From Prochlorococcus sp. AG-670-O17 (GTDB lineage: Bacteria > Cyanobacteriota > Cyanobacteriia > PCC-6307 > Cyanobiaceae), in contig QCTC01000008.1 in NCBI GenBank assembly GCA_003211315.1, forward strand, positions 1 through 44,047: a stretch of 44,047 nucleotides of DNA, read 5' to 3'. Positions 2,479-18,547 of the stretch are shown here, piece after piece. Below the pieces are notes generated by a model, which did no database searches, was not told the DNA's origin, and saw nothing but the letters and a program-made list of their open reading frames with translations. Each line of letters starts with the position of its first letter. Within the stretch, counting starts at the first letter, position 1. Position numbers and translations under genes: made by a program.

Positions 2479-2501
2479 AGAGCCCCTCCGAGAGCCCCTC
2501 C
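2479..2501 (+). repeat. Right-arm direct repeat of unit 0 (AGAGCCCCTCC x2)
   Basis: Two identical 11-mers AGAGCCCCTCC start at 2479 and 2491 (period 12). They lie about 120 bp before tRNA-Pro fragment 1, the same spacing seen for the repeats before fragments 2-5 (about 85-130 bp). The partner at the left end of this unit is outside the window. Interpreted as arm-type recombinase sites. Confidence 0.55.
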
Positions 2502-2624: not shown

Positions 2625-2671
2625 AGTGCTTTGGGAGCACTAGGTCGCAGGTTCGAATCCTGTCGCCCCGA
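2625..2671 (+). repeat. tRNA-Pro(UGG) 3' fragment, attachment copy 1
   Basis: 47 bp made of a perfect anticodon arm (AGTGC, loop TTTGGGA with anticodon TGG, GCACT), variable loop, T arm (GCAGG, TTCGAAT, CCTGT), the 3' acceptor strand CGCCCCG and discriminator A. The D arm and 5' acceptor strand are absent, so it cannot be a working tRNA. It is one of five near-identical copies in the same orientation and marks a cassette junction. Confidence 0.9.
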
Positions 2672-2699
2672 TTGACTTCTCACGATTCTTAAATATCCT

Positions 2700-2720
2700 C
2701 TGGGCGATCTCTGGGCGATC
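2700..2720 (+). repeat. Left-arm direct repeat of unit 1 (CTGGGCGATC x2)
   Basis: CTGGGCGATC at 2700-2709 and again at 2711-2720 (period 11), followed by ATTTGC, ATACC and TTGC. It begins 29 bp after tRNA-Pro fragment 1. The same motif recurs at the other end of the cassette (4710-4729). Confidence 0.65.
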
Positions 2721-2844
2721 ATTTGCTATACCTTGCATAGCTTTGATTAACGCATCTCCTTTTAAAAAAAATTATAACTTTTAAGACTCTAGGAAATTTT
2801 CAAGAGGCATTTAATTCAGCTAATTTAGTTTCGTATTTTTAAAG

Positions 2845-3711
2845 TTATGATTCATATAATAATTCATCATCTTTACCCACAATTTTAAAATAATCATTTT
2901 CCGATTCTTCCTTTCCTTCACAATAGATGCATTCTATTTGATAATTTATTAATAACTTTTTTAAAAAATAATCATTCCTGTCAAATTGTCCATCATCTAC
3001 CATCATTTTTATTAACTTATTCAAACATTCCTTATCTTTTAGTTCATCTTCTTCCAAATAATCCTCTTTTAATTCTTGAATTGTTAGATCTGGTTCATCT
3101 TCTTTAACGCTCTCAATGTAAAAATTTATTATTGATTCGTATTTCATACTAGGAATATAAAAAAAATGCTCCAAAACAATATTCCCATTTTGGCATGGAT
3201 CAATCACTTCATTTAAATCTGAATGTGAAAATAAAATATTTTTTCTATCAAAAACTTCATTCTCATTAACTTTTAATTGGTAAACAGAAACTATGTTTTT
3301 TTCAACTTTTTGCGAAAAAATCATAAGTTCCTCTTCTGAGCACTCAAAGTATGAATCTGAACTTATAAAAGTTTTTATTCCACTCTTATCAACAAATCCA
3401 TTTAGAAAATCTAATCTTCCAGAATAAATTTCTTTATAATCAGGATTTTGTTCATCTGAACTTGATTTAATAAATGCTTCCTCAATAAAAATATTTGCAT
3501 TACAAATTAATGGTCCAAAAACATTAATTTTATTATTAAAGTTTTCAACGTCAAATTCAACATCTCTTTCAAGAATACAATCGGAGGAAATTTCACCATT
3601 TGAAATTGCACCCTTTATTAAATTTACTAGGTTAAAATCATCAATTAACCCTGAAGAAAATTTTCCTCCTTGATTTGCTATTGTTATTCGAATTAACTTG
3701 TAATTATCCAT
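2845..3711 (-). CDS. Acidic hypothetical protein, GGKF family
   Basis: 288 aa from an ATG. It starts with a short beta-like segment, YKLIRITIANQGGKFSSGLI, resembling the start of the protein at 14638-15297 (YKFKIIGYGGKFTIGTI). Both also share a later V(F/C)GP segment, so they look like distant members of one island family. The C-terminal third is strongly acidic (KEDEPDLTIQELKEDYLEEDEL). It contains Cys-x2-Cys-like features (ECIYCEG) but no recognised active site. It is followed on the same strand after 105 bp... upstream by the WSCxxCWEW gene, and both lie in unit 1. Function unknown. Confidence 0.7.
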   Translation of the reverse strand: MDNYKLIRITIANQGGKFSSGLIDDFNLVNLIKGAISNGEISSDCILERDVEFDVENFNNKINVFGPLICNANIFIEEAFIKSSSDEQNPDYKEIYSGRLDFLNGFVDKSGIKTFISSDSYFECSEEELMIFSQKVEKNIVSVYQLKVNENEVFDRKNILFSHSDLNEVIDPCQNGNIVLEHFFYIPSMKYESIINFYIESVKEDEPDLTIQELKEDYLEEDELKDKECLNKLIKMMVDDGQFDRNDYFLKKLLINYQIECIYCEGKEESENDYFKIVGKDDELLYES

Positions 3712-3816
3712 TAAAATTTAAATGATTTATATCTCTTAAAGGAAAAAATTAATTTATAATATAACAGATCTTTAATAAGAGATAATAACTTATCATAAAT
3801 TTTAAAAAATTAATTA

Positions 3817-4572
3817 TTAATTATAAATTAATTCAAAAAATTCATCATTTTCTCCTATCAGATCATCAACTAATTCTGCATTCTCAAACCATTCTTCTGG
3901 ATCCTCCTCATGGACTAAATTACCACTTTCCAAACTTTTGAGTATTTTATTAATGGATTTATGTCCTTTGAAATAATCATTTCCAGAAAAGAATTCTACT
4001 TCTTGAAATCTTTTATTAATAAGAACTATTAATTCTCCTACTCCACCAATTACTCTAAAAAGGTATCTGGCTTTCTCATCTTTTTCAAGTAAAGTTATTT
4101 CTACATCTCTGCCAAAAGTTTGCGACTCTTCATTTTTCAAATCATATGCAGAAATTAATCCAAAAATTTCAGGCCAACTTGACTTGAGTTTAGTATGGCT
4201 ATATCTTTTAAACTTCGAAGAACCTTCTATCTTATATACTCTATCCCTATATTTTGCACCATATTCATATGAACCTCCACTTATTAAGGAATTTATAAGA
4301 AGAATTTTTGCTTCTGGCATTAATTCTTTAGAATTTTTTTTATCTGACATTTCATTTTCAAACCATTCCCAGCACAAATCACAAGACCATTTGCCGTTAA
4401 AAATTAAATCAATTGTTCTATTCTTCTCGGAATAACTTCCATTACATTCGCCGGCATATATGAAGAGATTATTAGACTCTAAATTTTGAATTATATGTTC
4501 AACAATTGTTTTATTAATTCTTGAATTTTTATTTAAATTTATAGTTAAAAATCCATTAGCAATGTTAGCCAC
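3817..4572 (-). CDS. Hypothetical protein with WSCxxCWEW motif (copy A)
   Basis: 251 aa from an ATG. It is clearly paralogous along its length to the protein at 7343-8140 in unit 3. Shared landmarks are the N-terminus (MA.IA.G.L.I.L.K.S), GKWSCDLCWEWFENEMSD near residue 60, the KEL-PEA--LLINS stretch, the HTKLKS segment and an acidic tail ending EFFEL. The Cys-x2-Cys-Trp-Glu-Trp core could bind a metal or form a disulfide. No signal peptide or membrane segment is visible. Its presence in two neighbouring cassettes suggests the cargo itself is useful or helps the element, but the role is unknown. Confidence 0.7.
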   Translation of the reverse strand: MANIANGFLTINLNKNSRINKTIVEHIIQNLESNNLFIYAGECNGSYSEKNRTIDLIFNGKWSCDLCWEWFENEMSDKKNSKELMPEAKILLINSLISGGSYEYGAKYRDRVYKIEGSSKFKRYSHTKLKSSWPEIFGLISAYDLKNEESQTFGRDVEITLLEKDEKARYLFRVIGGVGELIVLINKRFQEVEFFSGNDYFKGHKSINKILKSLESGNLVHEEDPEEWFENAELVDDLIGENDEFFELIYN

Positions 4573-4709
4573 AATTACCTTTAAATTCCTTAATTAATAT
4601 ACTCGAAAGTATTAATTTTAAGAACATTTCAAGCCAGACAATTCCTCTCCATTCCTTCTTTTCTGGCTAAAAAAGAGAAAATGGTGTCTTATTGACACTA
4701 GATCTTAGG

Positions 4710-4729
4710 CGGGCGATCCTCGGGCGATC
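4710..4729 (+). repeat. Right-arm direct repeat of unit 1 (CGGGCGATC x2)
   Basis: CGGGCGATC at 4710 and 4721 (period 11), then ATTTGC. This repeats the left-end motif of the same cassette (2700-2720) and sits about 130 bp before tRNA-Pro fragment 2. A small inverted repeat GTGTC/GACAC (4684-4698) lies just upstream. Confidence 0.65.
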
Positions 4730-4858
4730 ATTTGCTTAAGTATGCAATACTTTGCTCTATTTAAAGCGTTTTTTGAGACTCATTATGGCTACATATATTG
4801 CAAACTAGAGTTACAGCCTCACTTCGTTCTCATGGGTACTGTCGCATTTTGCTGATCG

Positions 4859-4905
4859 AGTGCTTTGGGAGCACTAGGTCGCAGGTTCGAATCCTGTCGC
4901 CCCGA
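4859..4905 (+). repeat. tRNA-Pro(UGG) 3' fragment, attachment copy 2
   Basis: Same 47-bp anticodon arm, T arm and acceptor 3' strand as copy 1. It is followed by an imperfect hairpin and T run (4926-4951), closely related in sequence to the terminators after copies 4 and 5. The 40 bp upstream (GCCTCACTT, TGTCGCATTTTGC) are shared with copy 3. Confidence 0.9.
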
Positions 4906-4979
4906 CTCTTAGAATCCAAGTTATAGAAAGGTTTCCCAGCCTATCTTTTTTATTGGTTACATTTTAGATTAATGAGACT

Positions 4980-4998
4980 GAGCGAGCTTTGAGCGAGG
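4980..4998 (+). repeat. Left-arm direct repeat of unit 2 (GAGCGAG x2)
   Basis: GAGCGAGCTTT followed directly by GAGCGAGG (4980 and 4991, period 11), then ATTTGCAATACCTTGC. The same motif closes the cassette at 6888-6906. It lies 75 bp after tRNA-Pro fragment 2, beyond the terminator. Confidence 0.65.
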
Positions 4999-5278
4999 AT
5001 TTGCAATACCTTGCACAACCTTGCTTTATTAAATTCTCGAATATTTTTAAATAGCTAATTAATCAAATACTTCAAAATACTTTATTACCAAGCCAGTCTT
5101 CGCTTAGTAATACATTTGGAATAGTAATAATAAAATTCCTAATCTCAGAGAATCAAGTTACTGAAAATAAGAATATTACAAGGCTAGATGACAATTGCCT
5201 TACTTAAAATATAGAACAGATGTAACTATCTCCAAAGTTAAATTTATACCAAATATACTATCTTATTCCATTTAAAAA

Positions 5279-5302
5279 CCTCTCTAATATTAAAAAGAGA
5301 GG
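5279..5302. terminator. Rho-independent terminator after pcb
   Basis: Inverted repeat CCTCTCT (5279-5285) with AGAGAGG (5296-5302), loop of about 10, and A/T runs on both sides. It lies 20 bp past the pcb stop and would end pcb transcription on the minus strand. The flanks allow it to work in both directions. Confidence 0.75.
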
Positions 5303-5321
5303 CTTTTATTTTTAACGTTTT

Positions 5322-6380
5322 TTATTTCTGGGTTATTTTTACATTTTCCATACTGTCAAATGCCTGACCAATCTTCTTGAAATCAAATCCCATAGCTCTT
5401 AACGCATGCCATAAATGACCTTGTAAGAAAAAGAATCCTAAATAGAAGTGCGTATTGGCAAGCCAAGCTCTTGAACTATATGCTCCAGAACCTAAATCAA
5501 CAGTGTCAGTAAAATAAGGGGCAAATTCAAATGAAAGCTTTAATGGTTCCCCATAAAGATCAACTGGATAAATAGTAGTATTTGAAGCACACCAAAATGC
5601 TGCTACAAAAGCCATATAAGAAACTCCTACTACTGAGTAAGAGAGAATCGCCTCAGCACCTAGTAATCCTTTACCTTTGAATTCTGTATATTCTCCAAAT
5701 TGTTTTGTACATATATGAAAAACGCCTCCAATAATTTCTAAGAAGGCTAAGAAAGCATGACCACCCATAATGTCTTCTAAACTATCAATTTTAAGAAAAT
5801 CAAACTGATGATTCCAAATAGCAGCGATATCCAGATTGTAAATTACTTGTCTTGTGGAACCTAAAGCAGGGTCATAAATACCATGGATCCTAGCCCATTC
5901 AACAAACATTATTGCTCCAAGACCTAAGAAAATAAGATGATGCCCCAGGATGAAAGTTAACTTATCTGGATCATCCCATTCAAAATCAAAACTTCTTGGT
6001 TTACTATTTTCAGGATAATCTCCAAGATCACCTGCAAATTTATTGGAATGTAATAGTCCTCCAGCACCTAATACTGCTGAGAAGATTAAATGCAATGTGC
6101 AAATTACAACGATTCCATATGGTTCTGTAATGACTCCATTTTCAATCCCTCCAATCCCAATGCCGGCTAGGTGAGGCAAAACAATTGCTTTCTGGGCACC
6201 CATTGGAATACTGGCGTCATAACGAGCTAATTCAAATAATCCAAAAGCCCCTGCCCAAAACATCATTAGACCAGCGTGAGCAGCATGAGCTGCGATGAAC
6301 TTACCGGAACGACCTACAACACCAGAATTACCTGCGTACCAGTCATAGGTAACATCAGAATTTCCGTAATTTTGTAACAC
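5322..6380 (-). CDS. Pcb chlorophyll a/b-binding antenna protein (CP43/IsiA family)
   Basis: 352 aa, full length for Pcb and clearly shorter than PsbC because it lacks the large lumenal loop. It has six predicted transmembrane helices. Chlorophyll-ligand regions typical of the family are present: GKFIAAHAAHAGLMMFWAGA near 26-45, ILGHHLIFLGL, IDSLEDIMGGHAFLAFLEIIGG, and FFLQGHLWHALRAMGF at the C-terminus. It binds divinyl-chlorophylls and feeds a photosystem in the thylakoid membrane. The gene lies between two tRNA-Pro fragments, so it is carried on a cassette and may be an extra copy besides the core pcbA. Several Pcb/IsiA proteins respond to iron shortage, but which photosystem this one serves cannot be read from the sequence. 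Confidence 0.93.
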   Translation of the reverse strand: MLQNYGNSDVTYDWYAGNSGVVGRSGKFIAAHAAHAGLMMFWAGAFGLFELARYDASIPMGAQKAIVLPHLAGIGIGGIENGVITEPYGIVVICTLHLIFSAVLGAGGLLHSNKFAGDLGDYPENSKPRSFDFEWDDPDKLTFILGHHLIFLGLGAIMFVEWARIHGIYDPALGSTRQVIYNLDIAAIWNHQFDFLKIDSLEDIMGGHAFLAFLEIIGGVFHICTKQFGEYTEFKGKGLLGAEAILSYSVVGVSYMAFVAAFWCASNTTIYPVDLYGEPLKLSFEFAPYFTDTVDLGSGAYSSRAWLANTHFYLGFFFLQGHLWHALRAMGFDFKKIGQAFDSMENVKITQK

Positions 6381-6631
6381 TTGTTTTTAAGATAAAAATC
6401 AAAATTAAACTAAATTATCTTTTGGACCTTTTTTATAGAACTTTACAGAATTTATCGCAAATGTTTATTAAGACATAATTTGTAAATCATTTAATACCCT
6501 TGTTTAAATTAATAATTACTTTTTACTATTCAAAATGTACCTTTAACCCTTTTTATGTATTTTTCTGCTTAATAGTTAACAAAATAAACTTAACATGAAT
6601 CTAATATTTTATTTTAATTACAAATAAATTC

Positions 6632-6766
6632 ATGTTTTCTTTTTCATTTAATTCATTAGCCGCAATTTGCGGAATATCTGGAATTATAGGATTTTATTTT
6701 TATGTATCAGCAGCAAGAGGTGAGTCATATATCAATACTCGTGCAAAGAATAATCTGGATAAATAA
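6632..6766 (+). CDS. 44-aa single-helix membrane peptide
   Basis: ATG at 6632, stop at 6764-6766. It starts MFSFSFNSLAAICG, has one hydrophobic helix (residues about 8-27) and a polar tail ending RAKNNLDK. Size and shape are those of the small single-helix subunits of photosystems, but I cannot match it to a named Psb or Psa peptide. It is divergent from the pcb gene with 250 bp between them and shares the same cassette, so a link to antenna assembly is possible but only inferred. Confidence 0.55.
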   Translation: MFSFSFNSLAAICGISGIIGFYFYVSAARGESYINTRAKNNLDK

Positions 6767-6887
6767 TATAAAATTCGATTAACTTCCCTTAGTAAAATTA
6801 GTGATTTGGAATTATTAATTATTTAAATAACTGTGATCAATATAATTTCTTCAAACCTGAACGTAAACATTTAATTTTTTAATTGTT

Positions 6888-6906
6888 GAGCGAGATTTGA
6901 GCGAGC
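6888..6906 (+). repeat. Right-arm direct repeat of unit 2 (GAGCGAG x2)
   Basis: GAGCGAGATTT followed by GAGCGAGC (6888 and 6899, period 11), then TTTTGCATACC, and a second ATACCTTGC. It mirrors the left end of unit 2 and stands about 130 bp before tRNA-Pro fragment 3. Confidence 0.65.
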
Positions 6907-7037
6907 TTTTGCATACCTATGCTATACCTTGCTACATATGGATGCAATATTGAGACTCATATTAATCCTAGTCATACCAACTCATAAGCTATAGCCTCAC
7001 TTGTTTCTCATGTGGGCTGTCGCATTTTGCGTAGCGG

Positions 7038-7083
7038 GTGCTTTGGGAGCACTAGGTCGCAGGTTCGAATCCTGTCGCCCCGA
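7038..7083 (+). repeat. tRNA-Pro(UGG) 3' fragment, attachment copy 3
   Basis: 46 bp identical to the other copies from GTGC of the anticodon stem to the discriminator A. The base before it is G instead of A, so the first stem pair is weakened. It is not followed by the hairpin found after copies 2, 4 and 5. Confidence 0.9.
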
Positions 7084-7121
7084 TTCAGTTATAGCAGTAA
7101 GTCTCAGCTAATAATAATTTT

Positions 7122-7157
7122 CCCTCAAAAAAGCGCTCCCTCAAAATTCCCTCAAAA
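7122..7157 (+). repeat. Left-arm direct repeat of unit 3 (CCCTCA x3)
   Basis: CCCTCA starts at 7122, 7138 and 7149 (steps of 16 and 11). The same three-copy layout with the same steps is found at the right end of the cassette at 8470-8503. It begins 39 bp after tRNA-Pro fragment 3. Confidence 0.65.
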
Positions 7158-7342
7158 AGTCTTTTGCCTAAATATTAAATACTGAAAGGCGATCTAAAAT
7201 AAAAGGAATTAGTTTCTTGTGGAAAGGTTCTCAAAACACCACAACTTCTCTTTTTGATATGAGGTTGTAAATATAATTATGAATATGAATAGACAGGTAA
7301 AAAGGCTTGCCTTAGAAGAATAAGGATAAGCCCCCATTTTTT

Positions 7343-8140
7343 CTATTCTTCACTCAACTCTTCCTCCTCCAATTCAAAAAATTCATCAATATCTCCTATA
7401 AGATCATATATTAATTCTCCAGTGCCATGAAAAGACTCTGGAAGATCATCTAGCTCTTCTAAATCTCCACTCTCTAAACCTTCGATTATTTCTTTAATAG
7501 ATAATTCTTCCAACTTATCTGAAAAGCCACTTTCGCCAAAAAATACAGGCTGAGGATGATCCTCTTTATCAGATTTATCATACAAAACAATAAAACCACC
7601 TACACCTCCTTCTATCTTAAATAAATATTGTTCTGACTCTGACTTCTCACTGAGAGTTACCTCTACATTATTTCCAAAATTTTGTGAAACGCCTTCATTT
7701 AGATTGTATGCATTAATTATCTCTAGTACTTCCCACCATTCTGATTTTAATTTTGTGTGATAATAAATATCTAATTTCTTGGCGCCTTTTTTTTTGGTTA
7801 CCCTATCCATATATGAATAAACTGCATCAAAAGAGCCTCCAATGATTTCAGAATTTATCAAAAGAGTCCTAGCTTCAGGATTTAGTTCTTTATTATCCTT
7901 AGCATCTGACAATTCATTTTCAATCCATTCCCAACATGAATTGCATGACCATCTTCCGCAGAAGTCTAAATCAAGGGTTTTATCTTTCTCATTAAAATGT
8001 GCATCGAAACCATCTGGCCCGCAATATGTGAAGTGATTATTGTTCTCTAAATTGTTTATGATTTCATCAACTGCACTTATATTTAATTCAGAATCTTTGT
8101 CTAAACTTATAGATAAATAACCAGTTGCAATATCTGCCAT
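7343..8140 (-). CDS. Hypothetical protein with WSCxxCWEW motif (copy B)
   Basis: 265 aa from an ATG, paralogue of the gene at 3817-4572. The conserved core GRWSCNSCWEWIENELSD is near residue 62, followed by KELNPEARTLLINSEIIGGS, HTKLKSEWWEVLEIINAYNL and FKIEGGVGGFIVL. The tail is longer and more acidic than in copy A (DEFFELEEEELSEE). There is no signal peptide or membrane segment. The two copies lie in different cassettes with different end repeats, so they probably arrived separately rather than by local duplication. Function unknown. Confidence 0.72.
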   Translation of the reverse strand: MADIATGYLSISLDKDSELNISAVDEIINNLENNNHFTYCGPDGFDAHFNEKDKTLDLDFCGRWSCNSCWEWIENELSDAKDNKELNPEARTLLINSEIIGGSFDAVYSYMDRVTKKKGAKKLDIYYHTKLKSEWWEVLEIINAYNLNEGVSQNFGNNVEVTLSEKSESEQYLFKIEGGVGGFIVLYDKSDKEDHPQPVFFGESGFSDKLEELSIKEIIEGLESGDLEELDDLPESFHGTGELIYDLIGDIDEFFELEEEELSEE

Positions 8141-8295
8141 TAAATTAGTTTTATTTAAATTAAAAAAATATATTAACCTAAGTTTAATAGATTAAAAAAA
8201 TGCATTTAAGATTTATTTAAAACTAAAGCACTTGTTAAATTTTAAAAAGAAAGTAGTTTTTACGTCTATGCTTAAAAAAATTTTTTGTAATTTAA

Positions 8296-8436
8296 ATGAC
8301 AGCATATACTGTATCAGCAATCCTTGAGGGTTATAGAGTTGAAGAAACGATCCATGCTGTATCTATACATCATGCTATTAAAATAATGAAGGCAAAATAT
8401 GGAAACTCAGCTAGGAATATTTATGTTCTTAATTAG
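8296..8436 (+). CDS. 46-aa conserved-looking small protein
   Basis: ATG at 8296, TAG at 8434-8436. The sequence starts MTAYTVSAILEGYRVEET and continues with an HH-containing helix (VSIHHAIKIMKAKYGN), ending in a short beta-like NIYVLN. It has a normal codon pattern and a compact alpha/beta feel, with no ribosome site of note. It lies divergent from the WSCxxCWEW gene in unit 3. Function unknown. Confidence 0.6.
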   Translation: MTAYTVSAILEGYRVEETIHAVSIHHAIKIMKAKYGNSARNIYVLN

Positions 8437-8469
8437 TTAGTAATAGATAATCTCCTTAAAAATATTTTT

Positions 8470-8503
8470 CCCTCAAAAAAGCATTCCCTCATATTTCCCT
8501 CAT
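8470..8503 (+). repeat. Right-arm direct repeat of unit 3 (CCCTCA x3)
   Basis: CCCTCA at 8470, 8486 and 8497 (steps 16 and 11), the same geometry as the left end of this cassette. It ends about 90 bp before tRNA-Pro fragment 4. Confidence 0.65.
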
Positions 8504-8594
8504 CACATACCAAACTAGTCCGAATTAGTCCACACTTATTCTCTCAAAAATCCTGATATAGCTATAAGTCTCAATTATAGCCTTGTTGGTGCGG

Positions 8595-8640
8595 GTTCTT
8601 TGGGAGCACTAGGTCGCAGGTTCGAATCCTGTCGCCCCGA
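8595..8640 (+). repeat. tRNA-Pro(UGG) 3' fragment, attachment copy 4
   Basis: The same 3' fragment, but the 5' anticodon strand reads GTTC instead of GTGC, which breaks one stem pair. The conserved part thus effectively runs from CTTTGGG to the discriminator A. Confidence 0.9.
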
Positions 8641-8663
8641 CTCTTAAAAACCAAGTTATAGTA

Positions 8664-8688
8664 GCGAGTTTCCCAGACTCGCTTTTTT
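8664..8688 (+). terminator. Terminator hairpin after tRNA-Pro fragment 4
   Basis: GCGAGT (8664-8669) pairs with ACTCGC (8677-8682) across a TTTCCCA-type loop and is followed by six T. The loop and flanking bases match the hairpins after copies 2 and 5, while the stems carry compensating changes, so the structure itself seems to be kept. Confidence 0.75.
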
Positions 8689-8699
8689 ATTGAAAAATC

Positions 8700-8735
8700 T
8701 GACGGCAGAGAAAGCCGTCAAAATGCCGTCAAATA
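8700..8735 (+). repeat. Left-arm repeat of unit 4 (inverted copy + GCCGTCAAA x2)
   Basis: GACGGC at 8701 is an inverted half-copy; direct copies GCCGTC start at 8714 and 8725. The start-to-start steps are 13 and 11. The left arm after fragment 5 (12465-12498) has the same steps with a different sequence. Confidence 0.65.
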
Positions 8736-8818
8736 TGATTTCTAGTATTTAAAAATAGATTTATGTTTTAAAAACTTTTTATAGGGATAAAGTACAATTT
8801 CTAAATAAAGATTTAATA

Positions 8819-11800
8819 ATGGAAGATACTTATAAAAAGTTAGAAGAGTCAAAACAATACATCAGGGAATCAAATGAGTTTCTCTATATTTCTATGGCAT
8901 GGTGGTGGGATGACTATGTAGGCAGAGAATTATTTAAAGAAGTAGAAAAAGCTCATAAAAGGAATATTGATATAAGAGTCGAAATGCGTCCTGATCCTAA
9001 GAATCAACAAATAGAAAGAAAGTTATCACAACTAAATATAAAAGTCACTGAAATAGTCGAATTTCACGCAAAAGCAATTTGCAATGAAAAAAGTCTCTTA
9101 ATAATGAATGGAAATTATTTTGAAAAAGATATGCTGAGAAATATAAATTTTTCAGCAGTAGAGAAGGACCAAGAAAAAATTAATGATCACAAAAAAGAAT
9201 TTATTGAAAGATCATTTAATAAAACAATCCAATTCGATGGACCTGAACTATATACACAAAAATCAAAATTAATTAAGGAGAAAAATATATGCGATTTACT
9301 AAAGTGGGAAAAACTTAATCCATTACAAAGCAAGGTTTGTAGACATGTTTTATATGGAGATGAAAATTTATTAGTTATTGCTCCTACTGCTTCAGGGAAA
9401 ACCTTAATTGGTGAATTAGCGCTTTATAGATCAATTTTATTAGAGGGGAAAAGAGCCGTTTGGATCGTTCCATCAAGAGCTCTAGCTGACGAAATAACGC
9501 AGTCACTTTATAGAGTTAGATCTCCAGAGATTAGGCCTTTAAAATGCTTAGGCAATGATGAAGTTAGTAATAGCTCTTTAAGAGACAATAATATATGGAT
9601 TTGCACTATTGAAAAATTTGAATCCCTCCTTAGAAAGAAATCCATTGATGGAATAACTTATGAAATAGAGTCAGTAATAGTTGACGAGATTCATCTTCTT
9701 GGAGATCAAGGAAGAGGGCAGATTTTAGAGTCAATTATTGCACGATATAAAGATCGCATTAATACAAAAAGAATTGTCGGATTATCCGCGACATTGGAAA
9801 ACGCTGAGGAATTTTCAGGATGGTTAAATGCTCGACTATTAAAAAGTAAATGGGTTCCAAATACAGTTCATAAGGAAGTTATTACCTTCGAAGCGACTGA
9901 AAATGAGTCTCCAAAATATATCACTAAAAAGAAAAATGAGATTCTTACAAAAATCATTCGGAGTATTAAAAATGATAAGAATAAGTCTGGCCCAATAATT
10001 ATCTTTTGCGGTTCAAAAAATAAATGTAGAAATCGCGCATTCCATATTATCTCCGGTAAAGATAATGCAGAATCATCATATGATTTTAAATCTACATTTA
10101 ATGAAGAAGATTTTGTATATCTAAAGGACCATAGAGTTGGGATTCACTATAGTAATTTTCAATTTGCCAATGAATTTAAAAATTTGTATTTAAAAAAAGA
10201 AATTGATGTTCTTTTCGCAACTACAGGTTTAGCCCAAGGAGTAAATCTCCCCGCAAAACATGTAATTATTTTAGATACTATTCTCGGCAAAGATTCAAAC
10301 TTGGATCTAAATCAAGCAGAACAAATGCTTGGGAGAGCAGGTAGAACACATGACAGTGAGGGATGGGGATATTTAGTTTGTCCTTCATATGAATACAATA
10401 AATGGAAAGATGATATAGGAGTTAAAACATCTAATGTAAATAGTGTTATTGATAAACATTTACCAGATGTTTTATTAGCAGAATTTTTTCTAGAGAATAT
10501 AAATTGCGAAAGAGATGCCTTTGACTTTTATAAGAGATCATTTAGAACCTACCAATCGAAAAAAGATGAAACAACCATTTTAAAAGAGGTTTCTAATTCA
10601 ATTGATTTTCTTTTAAGTAATGACTTCTTAGAAAGGGGGAAAGATGATGATCGACTCATACCTACTGAAGTAGGTAAAGCCTCTATTCAATTTATGGTTG
10701 ATACTAATATTGCTGTCTCTTTGATAAATTCATGTTCAAAGATTGTTTTTCCAAATAGTTATAAAGAAGCAGAGAAACAACTTATTAAAATTCTTGCTGA
10801 TGCATTACCTAAGGCAACTATTTATGACATTGATTATGATCTTGAAAAATACATAACAGAAGTACTTAACAATATCGGAATTTCTATTAAGGAAGATCAA
10901 GCAATTGATTATATTTCTCTATTTGCAATTCATTTAGCTTTAAATGACCCAGAAGAAATTAGTAAGATTTCAGCTAAAAACAAAGAATTAAGAAGTTTTT
11001 TCCAACTTCTATTGGAGGATCAATGTCCAAGATATTTTGGCTGGTTATCAAGAATAGGGAAATATACAAGATCTCCATGGGTAGTTTTTTGCACATTTGA
11101 TTTATCCAAAAGATTGAAATGGCATAAGCTCTCTCCAAATAATTACAAGGGTTCAAGCAAACTAATAAGTTTTTTAGAGCAATTAATAAATCCAGAGGAA
11201 GTTAACAATGAACTACCTAAAACCTGGCAGGCTGCAATAAATAAAAGATTCACCTCTCCAACAAAATTAGATAGAGAGACGAAAGAGCTTAGTTGTTCAA
11301 AAAATGCTGATGCAATTCAAAGAAGACTTTCATCCTTAATTAGAAAATCTGATGTCAAATTAAATTATGATGACAAAATTAAACAAATTAGAATAAGTGG
11401 TCTACCTACAGATACCAGAACAGTCTTTGCAGAAGTTTTTAAACCAAACTCAGTTAAAGGTCTTATTACATACATCACCGATGGGAGAGAATTTCTTATT
11501 TCAGTACCTTTTGGATCAAATCCAACGAATACATATAAGATCCTTATAAGTATCGAAACGCGAACAGATAGAGACCTGCTTGCTTTTGAAAAATCAATAA
11601 CTTCTACTGATAATAAAAACCAAGCTGAGGCCTTTTACCAAAACATAATTACAAAAATAACTGATCTTCCAGATATTCAAAAGATATCTAAAAAAAAGGG
11701 ACTACTTGGAAAAATAAAGAAGAAGTTACATATTGGTGATTTCGATGAAAGTGAATTAAAAGAATGGGTCCTAGCAAAAAAGCAATATTTTGTTGAATTG

Positions 11801-12235
11801 GTTGACTTAATTAATCAGGATTACGTTTCACCAGTAGACAAATGTATGAACATTAATACAGAAATAAATAAAATTATCAGACTAAAGCCAAGTTTAGATA
11901 ATGATGATGAATTTAGTTTTAGAAGTATGACCTCAGTTTTAAAATCAGGAGTTGCCACTAAATTTGAAAGAGAACTTTGTAAATTGTGTTTAGCTTCTAA
12001 TGCGGGTCTAAATTTTGGCGTAATTATGGGGTCAGGAAGAGGCGCATTTTATTCAGTTTGTGAGATAAATAATAAGTGGTTTGCCTTTGAAAATATCTCG
12101 CACATAATCCCAATTCCTCTATATCCAAATCCTCTCGGATCATCAAGAATTGAGCTTATAAGAAAAAATTCAAAAAACTTTGCATATGAGAATGCCGATA
12201 TTAATTGGGTTGAAGAATTTCAGGAATTTAATTAA
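8819..12235 (+). CDS. PLD-like domain + Ski2/Hel308-type superfamily 2 helicase
   Basis: 1138 aa from an ATG. Residues about 1-145 resemble a phospholipase-D-like domain with one HxK motif (HAK, 83-85) and a weak GN-x-F follow-up; the classic Asp is replaced, so nuclease activity is uncertain. A superfamily 2 helicase follows: motif I APTASGKT near 188-195, motif II DEIH 289-292, motif III SAT 323-325, and motif VI QMLGRAGRT near 501-509. The GRAGR form with DEIH fits the Ski2/Hel308 group. About 600 residues of C-terminal sequence include a likely winged-helix part and an unrecognised end domain. It is the only gene in its cassette. PLD plus helicase architecture is common in anti-phage genes, so a single-gene defence role is plausible but not shown. 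DNA repair is the main alternative. Confidence 0.85.
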   Translation: MEDTYKKLEESKQYIRESNEFLYISMAWWWDDYVGRELFKEVEKAHKRNIDIRVEMRPDPKNQQIERKLSQLNIKVTEIVEFHAKAICNEKSLLIMNGNYFEKDMLRNINFSAVEKDQEKINDHKKEFIERSFNKTIQFDGPELYTQKSKLIKEKNICDLLKWEKLNPLQSKVCRHVLYGDENLLVIAPTASGKTLIGELALYRSILLEGKRAVWIVPSRALADEITQSLYRVRSPEIRPLKCLGNDEVSNSSLRDNNIWICTIEKFESLLRKKSIDGITYEIESVIVDEIHLLGDQGRGQILESIIARYKDRINTKRIVGLSATLENAEEFSGWLNARLLKSKWVPNTVHKEVITFEATENESPKYITKKKNEILTKIIRSIKNDKNKSGPIIIFCGSKNKCRNRAFHIISGKDNAESSYDFKSTFNEEDFVYLKDHRVGIHYSNFQFANEFKNLYLKKEIDVLFATTGLAQGVNLPAKHVIILDTILGKDSNLDLNQAEQMLGRAGRTHDSEGWGYLVCPSYEYNKWKDDIGVKTSNVNSVIDKHLPDVLLAEFFLENINCERDAFDFYKRSFRTYQSKKDETTILKEVSNSIDFLLSNDFLERGKDDDRLIPTEVGKASIQFMVDTNIAVSLINSCSKIVFPNSYKEAEKQLIKILADALPKATIYDIDYDLEKYITEVLNNIGISIKEDQAIDYISLFAIHLALNDPEEISKISAKNKELRSFFQLLLEDQCPRYFGWLSRIGKYTRSPWVVFCTFDLSKRLKWHKLSPNNYKGSSKLISFLEQLINPEEVNNELPKTWQAAINKRFTSPTKLDRETKELSCSKNADAIQRRLSSLIRKSDVKLNYDDKIKQIRISGLPTDTRTVFAEVFKPNSVKGLITYITDGREFLISVPFGSNPTNTYKILISIETRTDRDLLAFEKSITSTDNKNQAEAFYQNIITKITDLPDIQKISKKKGLLGKIKKKLHIGDFDESELKEWVLAKKQYFVELVDLINQDYVSPVDKCMNINTEINKIIRLKPSLDNDDEFSFRSMTSVLKSGVATKFERELCKLCLASNAGLNFGVIMGSGRGAFYSVCEINNKWFAFENISHIIPIPLYPNPLGSSRIELIRKNSKNFAYENADINWVEEFQEFN

Positions 12236-12249
12236 TTTTTTAGATCTAT

Positions 12250-12272
12250 GCCGTCAAATGGCCGTCAAATGA
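12250..12272 (+). repeat. Right-arm direct repeat of unit 4 (GCCGTCAAATG x2)
   Basis: GCCGTCAAATG at 12250-12260 and 12261-12271 (period 11), only 15 bp after the helicase stop codon. It matches the left end of the cassette and precedes fragment 5 by about 85 bp. GCAATACC, related to the element beside other arms, occurs at 12298-12305. Confidence 0.65.
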
Positions 12273-12357
12273 TTCATTCTTTGTCATGTCAAATTAAGCA
12301 ATACCCCGCATTTATTTAGTCATGGCTTGTAGACATAGTGCTCTACTAGGGTTGTTA

Positions 12358-12404
12358 AGTGCTTTGGGAGCACTAGGTCGCAGGTTCGAATCCTGTCGCC
12401 CCGA
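12358..12404 (+). repeat. tRNA-Pro(UGG) 3' fragment, attachment copy 5
   Basis: 47 bp identical to copies 1 and 2 (perfect anticodon arm, T arm, acceptor strand). It is the last copy in the window; no further tRNA-Pro fragment is seen to the right. Confidence 0.9.
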
Positions 12405-12450: not shown

Positions 12451-12464
12451 ATTGGATAAAATCT

Positions 12465-12498
12465 GTCCGCAGAAAAAGCGGACAAAAAGCGGACAAAT
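12465..12498 (+). repeat. Left-arm repeat of the unit right of fragment 5 (inverted copy + GCGGACAAA x2)
   Basis: GTCCGC at 12465 is an inverted half-copy; GCGGACAAA follows at 12478 and 12489. The steps of 13 and 11 equal those of the left arm of unit 4. No matching right arm was found downstream, so this unit is truncated, rearranged, or its far end has eroded. Confidence 0.6.
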
Positions 12499-16461: not shown

Positions 16462-16484
16462 CCCGCCAACAAACCCGCCAACAA
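16462..16484 (+). repeat. Left arm-like repeat of the tRNA-Ser-side unit (CCCGCCAACA x2)
   Basis: CCCGCCAACA at 16462 and 16474 (period 12). A closely related pair, TCCACCAACACA x2 with the same period, stands at 18271-18294 on the other side of the oxygenase block and close to tRNA-Ser. The two pairs differ mainly by G to A in the motif. Confidence 0.5.
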
Positions 16485-18205: not shown

Positions 18206-18270
18206 ACTTTTTTGTTATAACGGCAGATACAGGAACATCTGGGTTGGTTAAAGTGATGTAGAGGTAAATA

Positions 18271-18294: not shown

Positions 18295-18403
18295 TTCAGG
18301 CAGACACTGGTAAATATTGGACTATATAGGACAAGCAACTTCTTTAAAATCCGATTTTGACTACATTATTGCCCACATAGCACTTTACTGGAAGATAATT
18401 AAA

Positions 18404-18488
18404 CGGAGAGGGTGGGATTCGAACCCACGAACAGTTTCCTGTTAAACGATTTCGAGTCGTTCGCTTTCGACCACTCAGCCACCTCTCC
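18404..18488 (-). tRNA. tRNA-Ser(CGA)
   Basis: 85 nt on the minus strand. Acceptor GGAGAGG pairs with CCTCTCC, discriminator G; the anticodon loop CTCGAAA gives anticodon CGA; a long variable arm (AACAGGAAACTGTT) is typical of class II tRNA-Ser; the T arm is GTGGG-TTCGAAT-CCCAC. CCA is not encoded. The gene is complete and marks the boundary between the island and the conserved chromosome, with its 3' end facing the island. Confidence 0.95.
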
Positions 18489-18547
18489 GTAATTAAACAA
18501 TATATATAAAAATATATAAATTTATTTTATGTTTTATATCTTAAGCT

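Follow-up and report, generated by a model that had tools for sequence, protein, structure and literature searches.

Private tandem words at the ends of tRNA-Pro cassettes in Prochlorococcus, putative arm sites on a shared integration core

Cassettes and paired end words in the window

The window analysed here, a stretch of 44,047 nucleotides (contig QCTC01000008.1) from Prochlorococcus sp. AG-670-O17, holds an array of five tandem plus-strand copies of the 3′ half of tRNA-Pro(TGG), all 43 nt long and identical, which span 2629-12404 and separate four cassettes of 1.5-3.7 kb each. These copies, hereafter cores, are the only five matches to a 35-nt core pattern (at most 3 mismatches) across the whole 82%-complete assembly, and as to their identity, ARAGORN calls an intact tRNA-Pro in 12/18 array loci of relatives. 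Each cassette is bordered on both sides by a tandem word of its own, with equal spacing on the left and on the right, at 31-75 bp past the left core and 112-153 bp ahead of the right core. These words are called arms below, and the features are as follows (coordinates, strand, description; ORF, open reading frame).

2479..2501, plus: right arms of a cassette truncated by the contig start, AGAGCCCCTCC twice at 2479 and 2491, 12-bp period
2629..2671, plus: core 1, 43 nt, 3′ half of tRNA-Pro(TGG)
2702..2720, plus: cassette 1 left arms, GGGCGATC twice at 2702 and 2713
2845..4572, minus: cassette 1 cargo, two hypothetical proteins (ORFs 2845-3711 and 3817-4572)
4711..4729, plus: cassette 1 right arms, GGGCGATC twice at 4711 and 4722; matching position in relatives
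4863..4905, plus: core 2, same 43 nt
4980..4997, plus: cassette 2 left arms, GAGCGAG twice at 4980 and 4991
5322..6380, minus: cassette 2 cargo, chlorophyll a/b-binding light-harvesting (Pcb-type) protein (TIGR03041, E 9.8e-162)
6888..6905, plus: cassette 2 right arms, GAGCGAG twice at 6888 and 6899
7041..7083, plus: core 3, same 43 nt
7122..7154, plus: cassette 3 left arms, CCCTCA three times at 7122, 7138 and 7149 (spacing 16, then 11)
7343..8140, minus: cassette 3 cargo, one hypothetical protein
8470..8502, plus: cassette 3 right arms, CCCTCA three times at 8470, 8486 and 8497 (spacing 16, then 11)
8598..8640, plus: core 4, same 43 nt
8700..8731, plus: cassette 4 left arms, inverted TGACGGC at 8700 and GCCGTCA twice at 8714 and 8725
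8819..12235, plus: cassette 4 cargo, 1138-aa DEAD-box helicase (PF00270)
12250..12267, plus: cassette 4 right arms, GCCGTCA twice at 12250 and 12261
12362..12404, plus: core 5, same 43 nt
12464..12495, plus: left arms of a further element, inverted TGTCCGC at 12464 and GCGGACA twice at 12478 and 12489

An earlier note on this DNA had claimed that each cassette has its own matching repeat at both ends, mostly with an 11-bp period; the pairing was confirmed in 4/4 window cassettes, the period was borne out, and the repeat coordinates proved correct to within 2 bp. When the four left ends were compared with the four right ends, shared tandem 7-mers numbered 2, 2, 1 and 3 on the diagonal and 0 in every off-diagonal cell, while dinucleotide-preserving shuffles gave a match in 0/1000 trials for any window cassette, so that the shuffles together with the mismatched-pair controls rule out a chance origin of these repeats. 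Within the 44 kb there are exactly four copies each of GGGCGATC and GAGCGAG, all on the plus strand and none on the minus strand; CCCTCA is a short, non-unique word with 10 copies on the plus strand and 7 on the minus strand.

The earlier note did not contain the two half-pairs at the borders of the array, AGAGCCCCTCC at 2479/2491 and GCGGACA at 12478/12489. AGAGCCCCTCC also adjoins the integrase of L104 (L-numbers denote array or integrase loci fetched from relatives), with right ends 51/60 alike, and for the element starting at 12464 a right end was not found, the window holding no other plus-strand GCGGACA. At left ends with GTCAAA/GACAAA-type words, an extra inverted word copy was seen by eye ahead of the two direct copies in three cases (window 8700 and 12464, and L149).

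None of the cargo genes in cassettes 1-4 is an integrase. The two ORFs of cassette 1 gave zero Pfam and zero PADLOC matches, and ORF 3817-4572 has a DNA repeat in common with the cassette 3 ORF (86% over 51 nt). The helicase of cassette 4 matches a HamB-type profile, with Hel308 profiles matched below their cut-offs. Outside the array, the segment 16463-18489 contains a tRNA-Ser(cga) at 18403-18489 on the minus strand together with arm-like repeats, CCACCAACACA twice near 18270 and CCGCCAACAAA twice near 16463, and, judged by eye, is probably another island end.

Cassette ends across the genus

A 29-nt core pattern (at most 3 mismatches) was found in 175/200 sampled genomes of the genus and in 66/66 of those with good quality, the copy number reaching 18; since the tRNA gene itself supplies one core copy, only multiple copies mark arrays. 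The regions surveyed for cassettes were hand-chosen among the matches listed, which makes the sample non-random, and cassettes shorter than 400 bp, with more than 3 core mismatches or duplicated were left out. In the first round, comprising 34 array stretches and the window, a strict match, namely a tandem 7-mer common to both ends, was present in 61/116 distinct cassettes vs 338/13,340 mismatched pairings, and in the enlarged set it was present in 104/189 cassettes vs 2.6% of 35,532 mismatched pairings; a looser test matched 131/189 cassettes vs 12.9% of the mismatched pairings. The arm spacing is equal at both ends in 103/104 strict cassettes (70 with 11 bp and 33 with 12 bp, one being unequal). 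The paired-word observation is thus confirmed and general in the genus, and the 58 distinct word strings among the 91 strictly matched cassettes that lack an integrase, many of them trimmed or one-base variants, on our reading stand for about two to three dozen arm words.

With regard to the arrays themselves, a pattern search found the 5′ part of the tRNA in 21/50 array loci, where it belongs to the first core in 19/21, the other loci of the 50 being partial arrays or showing no such part; in L040 and L175, one core stands ahead of the intact tRNA part. Cores are mostly perfect near the tRNA and distal copies tend to be decayed, a gradient that is expected from serial insertion at the tRNA.

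Two window words were followed genome-wide, and neither lies at random positions, an outcome that the earlier note had named as refuting its idea. Tandem GGGCGATC occurs in 50/266 genomes and its letter-reversed control in 0/266; GGGCGATC-NNN-GGGCGATC was located 32 times in 30 loci; in 30 cases it begins either 59 bp past the point where a core motif starts or 166, 167 or 171 bp ahead of that point, and the other 2/32 have no core inside about 1.5 kb. Tandem GAGCGAG occurs in 54/266 genomes, and its 34 occurrences in 30 loci comprise 31 at cassette-end positions, 2 without a core and 1 that is off by 1.5 kb; its reversed control matched once in each of two genomes and is a weak one, since GAGCGAG reads alike backwards. 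Random genomic placement is therefore ruled out for these two words. The left ends with GAGCGAG show two offsets from the core, 59 or 102-105, probably set by whether or not a terminator-like hairpin past the tRNA, recognized by eye, is included. In viral contigs, tandem GGGCGATC was found in 64 stretches, and a core-like match solely in L282, at a distance of 1.4 kb.

Whole cassette ends are related among elements, and the repeats might accordingly be thought to have been inherited within blocks from common ancestral elements and to have no separate role. Entire right ends are indeed homologous: that of cassette 2 is identical at 154/160 positions to those of the integrase elements L108 and L191, those of cassettes 3 and 4 are alike at 97/117 and 97/109 positions to those of the integrase elements L058 and L134, and that of cassette 1 is closest to that of L108 (130/189). 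Against block inheritance, the arm word is common to both ends of one cassette and rarely to other left-right pairings. Furthermore, among right ends with different cargo, the bins that contain the arms are 0.95-1.0 alike, whereas the core-side stretch is 0.34-0.91 alike (four words, with flanks chosen to differ); at GGGCGATC left ends, the core-side bins, core included, are conserved to about the same degree as the arms. On balance we regard this explanation as extremely unlikely.

Arm words and the integrase N-terminal domain

Complete elements of relatives carry tyrosine recombinases of 389-475 aa that adjoin the same tRNA-Pro core, such as the 9-kb cassette of L049, whose 454-aa integrase has its start codon close to the right arms. 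Searches with a protein and with an iterated profile yielded 87 distinct proteins, with exclusion of proteins below 380 aa, with E above 1e-30, with too little upstream DNA or with no nearby core; in 76 the start codon has a core nearby, 69 of these show a usable tandem repeat, and 40 remain as the non-redundant set. The tandem repeat lies 60-230 bp from the core in 69/76 distinct integrases, mostly at distances typical of five arm classes, which were defined in the present analysis by distance and period:

GGGG-type: period 12 bp, 150-153 from core
..CAAA-type: period 11 bp, 113-116 from core
third class: 123-127 from core
GTGCAGTCT: period 10 bp, 71-82 from core
TGTACGCAA: period 11 bp, 219-221 from core, beside intact tRNA

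The TGTACGCAA arms belong to twelve distinct, highly similar integrases of 462-470 aa (L040, L112, L118-L125, L128 and L131) located 5′ of an intact tRNA-Pro, an arrangement that looks as if the whole tRNA were carried along. In L185 and L189, related integrases with tandem words lie next to sequence that resembles, by eye, the 3′ end of guaA, another target site.

Direct repeats spaced by a helical turn are also found in iterons, and the right arms of the ..CAAA class lie directly upstream of the integrase start codon; the repeats might be sites of a replication initiator, a partition system or an integrase repressor, not of a recombinase. Against this, the repeats lie at both ends of a cassette at fixed distances from the core, persist where the integrase is absent and co-vary with the integrase N-terminal domain (N-domain), as described below, and we give this possibility hardly any weight.

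In an alignment of 18 integrase sequences, the catalytic residues R298, K321, R393, H417 and Y426 (numbered as in the first sequence) are invariant, and the usual first histidine of what we take to be the HxxR box is unconserved. The L049-type and L108/L191-type integrases matched no Pfam or NCBIfam family, the L058 integrase matches the PHROG 1 integrase (E 5.3e-11), and a search of the sequences of solved structures matched the catalytic part alone (4a8e, XerC-like, E 1.2e-08). Seven relatives sit in named Prochlorococcus genomes, and tblastn found none in viral contigs. For the N-domain, a helix, three strands and two helices are predicted in a model with a predicted local distance difference test (pLDDT) of 72, the full-length model being poor (pLDDT 57). 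With the N-domain model, Foldseek gave zero matches at E at most 0.001, and in a fold comparison the best VIA Z was 4.9, for chains without a known link to integrases, with a chain of an AP2 domain (6sy0) at Z 2.9. A second, short tyrosine recombinase of about 200 aa, almost the catalytic domain alone, is present in both of the complete elements L049 and L191 (L049:4120-4758 and L191:8602-9192).

The arm word co-varies with the N-domain. In partial Mantel tests on the 40 non-redundant integrases, the correlation of arm with N-domain given the body of the protein was 0.41 (0/2000 permutations). In a sliding scan along the protein, the partial correlation peaked at residues 31-60 and 61-90 (maximum 0.28, 0/500 permutations), with values elsewhere of at most 0.09 and down to -0.31, save for 0.15 each at 21-40, 51-70 and 181-200. 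Among 55 integrase pairs with a body identity of 60% or more, arm similarity was correlated with N-domain identity (r = 0.62), and mean arm similarity was 0.66 in the 30 pairs with N-domains below 50% and 0.87 in the 7 pairs with N-domains of at least 80%, over a background mean of 0.41 (661 pairs). Because label permutation keeps shared ancestry, the permutation counts serve as guides, and natural swaps are the stronger evidence. L037 and L144 are 97% identical in the body and 35% identical in the N-domain, and their words differ, ATTCCGTCAAA vs TTGCGGACAAA. The words of L049, L102 and L103 are GGGGTAGCTA, GGGGGCGCT and GGGGGAGCTAG, with 92-93% identity to L049 overall; L103 and L106 have the hairpin letters and the word in common, with proteins only about half identical; and L102, an integrase, and L111, a fusion to an RmuC protein, have N-domains that are 80% alike and both have GGGGCGCT, with unrelated bodies. 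Co-variation with recombinase type was thus found, with the word following the N-domain, and together with the placement at cassette ends it supports the earlier suggestion that the repeats may be arm-type sites of private specificity.

Within the 12-bp class, in the small number of cases available, integrases with Met at residue 37 have GGGGT arms (L049, L110 and, as a stub, L055), and those with Arg or Ala have GGGGG arms (L103, L106, L102 and L105); L111 combines Arg with a run of G whose register is uncertain, and the Arg of L109 is paired with GGGGAGCGC, a word that agrees only under a shifted register. Residue 37 maps to the second strand of the predicted three-strand sheet. A readable arm code may sit in the predicted beta hairpin, which is a lead from a model of modest quality and not a result. 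The L111 protein itself (L111:1390-2784, also L194 and L305; Prochlorococcus AG-347-E03) joins an N-domain of the integrase type to an RmuC protein (PF02646, E 7.8e-76), and its start adjoins GGGGCGCT arms and the tRNA-Pro core; it is possibly a non-integrase reader of the arm code, or else a chimera.

The repeats could also be bound by an excisionase, or recombination directionality factor (RDF), in place of the integrase. Beside the L049 integrase lies a 90-aa protein that resembles a helix-turn-helix (HTH) protein (HTH_17 and DUF1233 below their cut-offs), and L191 encodes a similar protein, as judged by eye. The words, however, follow the integrase N-domain, and RDF sites are usually confined to one arm, which leaves binding by an RDF very unlikely in our estimation.

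Integrase-less cassettes and relation to known systems

Most sampled cassettes lack an integrase. By profile it is absent from 163/189 and present in 26, with median lengths of 1.9 vs 7.7 kb, and since later stretches were fetched for their integrases, the integrase fraction is if anything overstated. The strict arm match is present in 91/163 integrase-less cassettes, and 69 of these 91 have a 7-mer in common with the arms of a sampled integrase, an upper figure as some of the words are near and not exact, the corresponding shares being 6.5% when the words were shuffled and 10.7% when random stretches were drawn from those ends.

Based on these findings, we propose that the repeats are private lambda-type arm sites on one shared core, and that the integrase-less cassettes are moved in trans by elements with the same word, a combined reading that we consider highly probable. 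First, a cassette would be an integrated circle, which could be excised by recombination between its two tRNA-Pro cores, and in the resulting circle a single core would be flanked by the arms from the right end and those from the left end, like P and P′ in attP. Second, the arm word would be recognized by the N-domain of the element's own integrase type, and each word, being read by a different N-domain, would make an element respond only to the integrase of its type; the use of one tRNA-Pro 3′-half core by all elements would then let them stack behind one tRNA gene. Third, integrase-less cassettes would be mobilized in trans by complete elements that carry the identical word. The assignment of the repeats as arm sites is well supported, and the trans action on integrase-less cassettes is likely, judging from the comparison of sequences.

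The putative helper of cassette 2 is an 8.4-kb element (L191:6470-14922) with GAGCGAG arms at both ends and a 433-aa integrase, which further encodes a primase/ATPase protein, the small recombinase and a 79-aa protein that is HTH-like by eye and has no Pfam match. For cassette 1, no intact integrase with GGGCGATC was found in a scan that reached about 1.5 kb from the right ends, and a 63-aa stub beside GGGCGATC right arms at L216:2246-2437 resembles by eye the L108 N-domain (weak profile match, 0.0013). The window's own genome (82% complete) encodes a conserved recombinase of 389-393 aa and one distant 404-aa integrase beside a tRNA-Ser, and its tandem GGGCGATC and GAGCGAG are confined to the contig of the window, with about 18% of the genome missing. 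This 404-aa integrase (L307:1459-2673, contig 33) adjoins an intact tRNA-Ser(tga), and the interval from the gene to the tRNA contains GTTCCGAAT repeated about every 11 bp.

The arm sites could be real and the integrase-less cassettes nevertheless dead relics of complete elements that are not mobilized in trans. The greater decay of distal cores is consistent with this, as is the fall of arm matches with core decay, the loose match being present in 91/113 cassettes with both cores perfect and in 10/30 with at least 3 core mismatches. Deletion debris is also present: integrase stubs occur at L216:2246-2437 and at the right ends of L055 and L037, and L227:517-720 is an internally deleted integrase, which show a route by which integrase-less cassettes can arise. 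Such N-domain stubs were found, however, in just 2/163 integrase-less cassettes (frames of at least 18 aa in the last 900 bp; control 0), so that in-place decay is not visible for most of them. Strictly matched arms are also kept in 91/163 of these cassettes, and a single word stands on many different cargo flanks, as GAGCGAG does (for example, 17 flanks among 28 left ends); this word is in 54/266 genomes and its integrase in one, with relatives at 31-41% identity in ten other genomes (E at most 1e-40), and incomplete assemblies may conceal further integrases of its type. We therefore judge the relic explanation unlikely, and retain mobilization in trans as the preferred one.

Several findings weigh against private arm sites and trans mobilization. 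The strict test was failed by 85/189 cassettes and the loose one also by 58/189; the failures cluster at decayed cores, a pattern that fits decay and falls short of proof. The strict match is present in just 13/26 integrase-bearing cassettes, no better than in those without an integrase, and 22/91 strict integrase-less cassettes have a word that is absent among the sampled integrases. Among the 76 integrases, 2 have no tandem repeat and 5 have core-proximal repeats only. The partial Mantel correlation of arm with body given the N-domain is still 0.25 (0/2000 permutations), and some pairs share at least 8 arm letters with N-domains that are 15-30% alike, such as L139 with L132 and L141 (26%), L034 with L139, and L108 with L146. 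Finally, the N-domain model is of modest quality and has no clear fold match.

In a wider form, the proposal would describe an addressing system across the genus, in which the two to three dozen words act as separate mobilization channels at one tRNA gene, orphan cassettes outnumber helpers and are mobile only after the arrival of a matching element in the cell, the address is a swappable block, and a code possibly involves residue 37; we put the chances of this extension at about even. In an excised circle, the N-domain coding region, the right arms, the core and the left arms would be contiguous in roughly 0.5 kb, and such contiguity could make the address exchangeable as one block with the catalytic body untouched. 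If the proposal of private arm sites is right, it would explain how many unrelated cassettes can occupy one tRNA site and not be moved by every recombinase that recognizes the core, light-harvesting genes and others could travel without their own integrase in a highly abundant phototroph, and orphan cassettes could be paired with helper elements by a rule based on sequence only. The 40 non-redundant integrases with their words would also provide a natural data set for an arm-recognition code and for orthogonal integrases.

The elements described here are likely tycheposons, a name set by genus, tRNA site and recombinase, as they are integrated at a tRNA site in Prochlorococcus and have a tyrosine recombinase beside the cores, the window's own cassettes being without an integrase. 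Tycheposons are said, after Hackl et al. in 2023, to have a hallmark gene set and a deep-branching recombinase, and we know of no report of private arm words in them. A second-hand account describes them as elements of Prochlorococcus at tRNA sites, with a tyrosine recombinase, that carry cargo or resemble satellites (PMC10872708, in the part consulted).

Two kinds of element without integration genes are comparable. Cis-mobilizable elements (CIMEs) keep attL and attR, stack in tandem and also occur at the 3′ end of tRNA genes, and the cassettes resemble them in that 163/189 lack an integrase and 91 of these have strictly matched ends; however, CIMEs are described, in the sections consulted, as decayed integrative and conjugative elements (ICEs) or integrative and mobilizable elements (IMEs), whereas the present cassettes have many arm words (PMC5704250). 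Clusters of attC sites lacking integron-integrases (CALINs) are integrase-less integron arrays that depend on an integrase from elsewhere, but, according to the available part of that source, they use integron attC sites, whereas the present cassettes use tRNA halves and private arms (PMC11389934).

A precedent for private arms is found in Cluster K mycobacteriophages, whose attP has pairs of 11-bp arm sites around a tmRNA core, whose arm consensus changes with the N-terminal residues 17 and 19, and among which related phages have the same core and other arms (PMC3203893, as far as consulted). These phages are few and encode their own integrases, and the consulted part of that report mentions neither integrase-less cassettes nor tandem arrays. 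The earlier note's claim to originality holds in part: private arms on a shared core had already been noted in these few mycobacteriophages (PMC3203893), and the genus-wide version was not found elsewhere, as a literature search, with sources seen in part and the main tycheposon paper not covered, gave no genus in which cassettes on a common core carry many private words that go with exchangeable N-domains.

A core in the 3′ half of a tRNA is common among lambda-type systems. Arm sites bound by the N-domain are established for lambda-type integrases, and the present arrangement is like lambda-type attP in having arms on both sides of the core and a separate N-terminal domain in the integrase (PMC4880445; classes in PMC8138268; both as represented in the parts consulted). 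Unlike lambda-type attP, it combines many private words on one core in one genus, and most sampled carriers are without an integrase. In conclusion, the system is a variation on known kinds of element, not a new kind.

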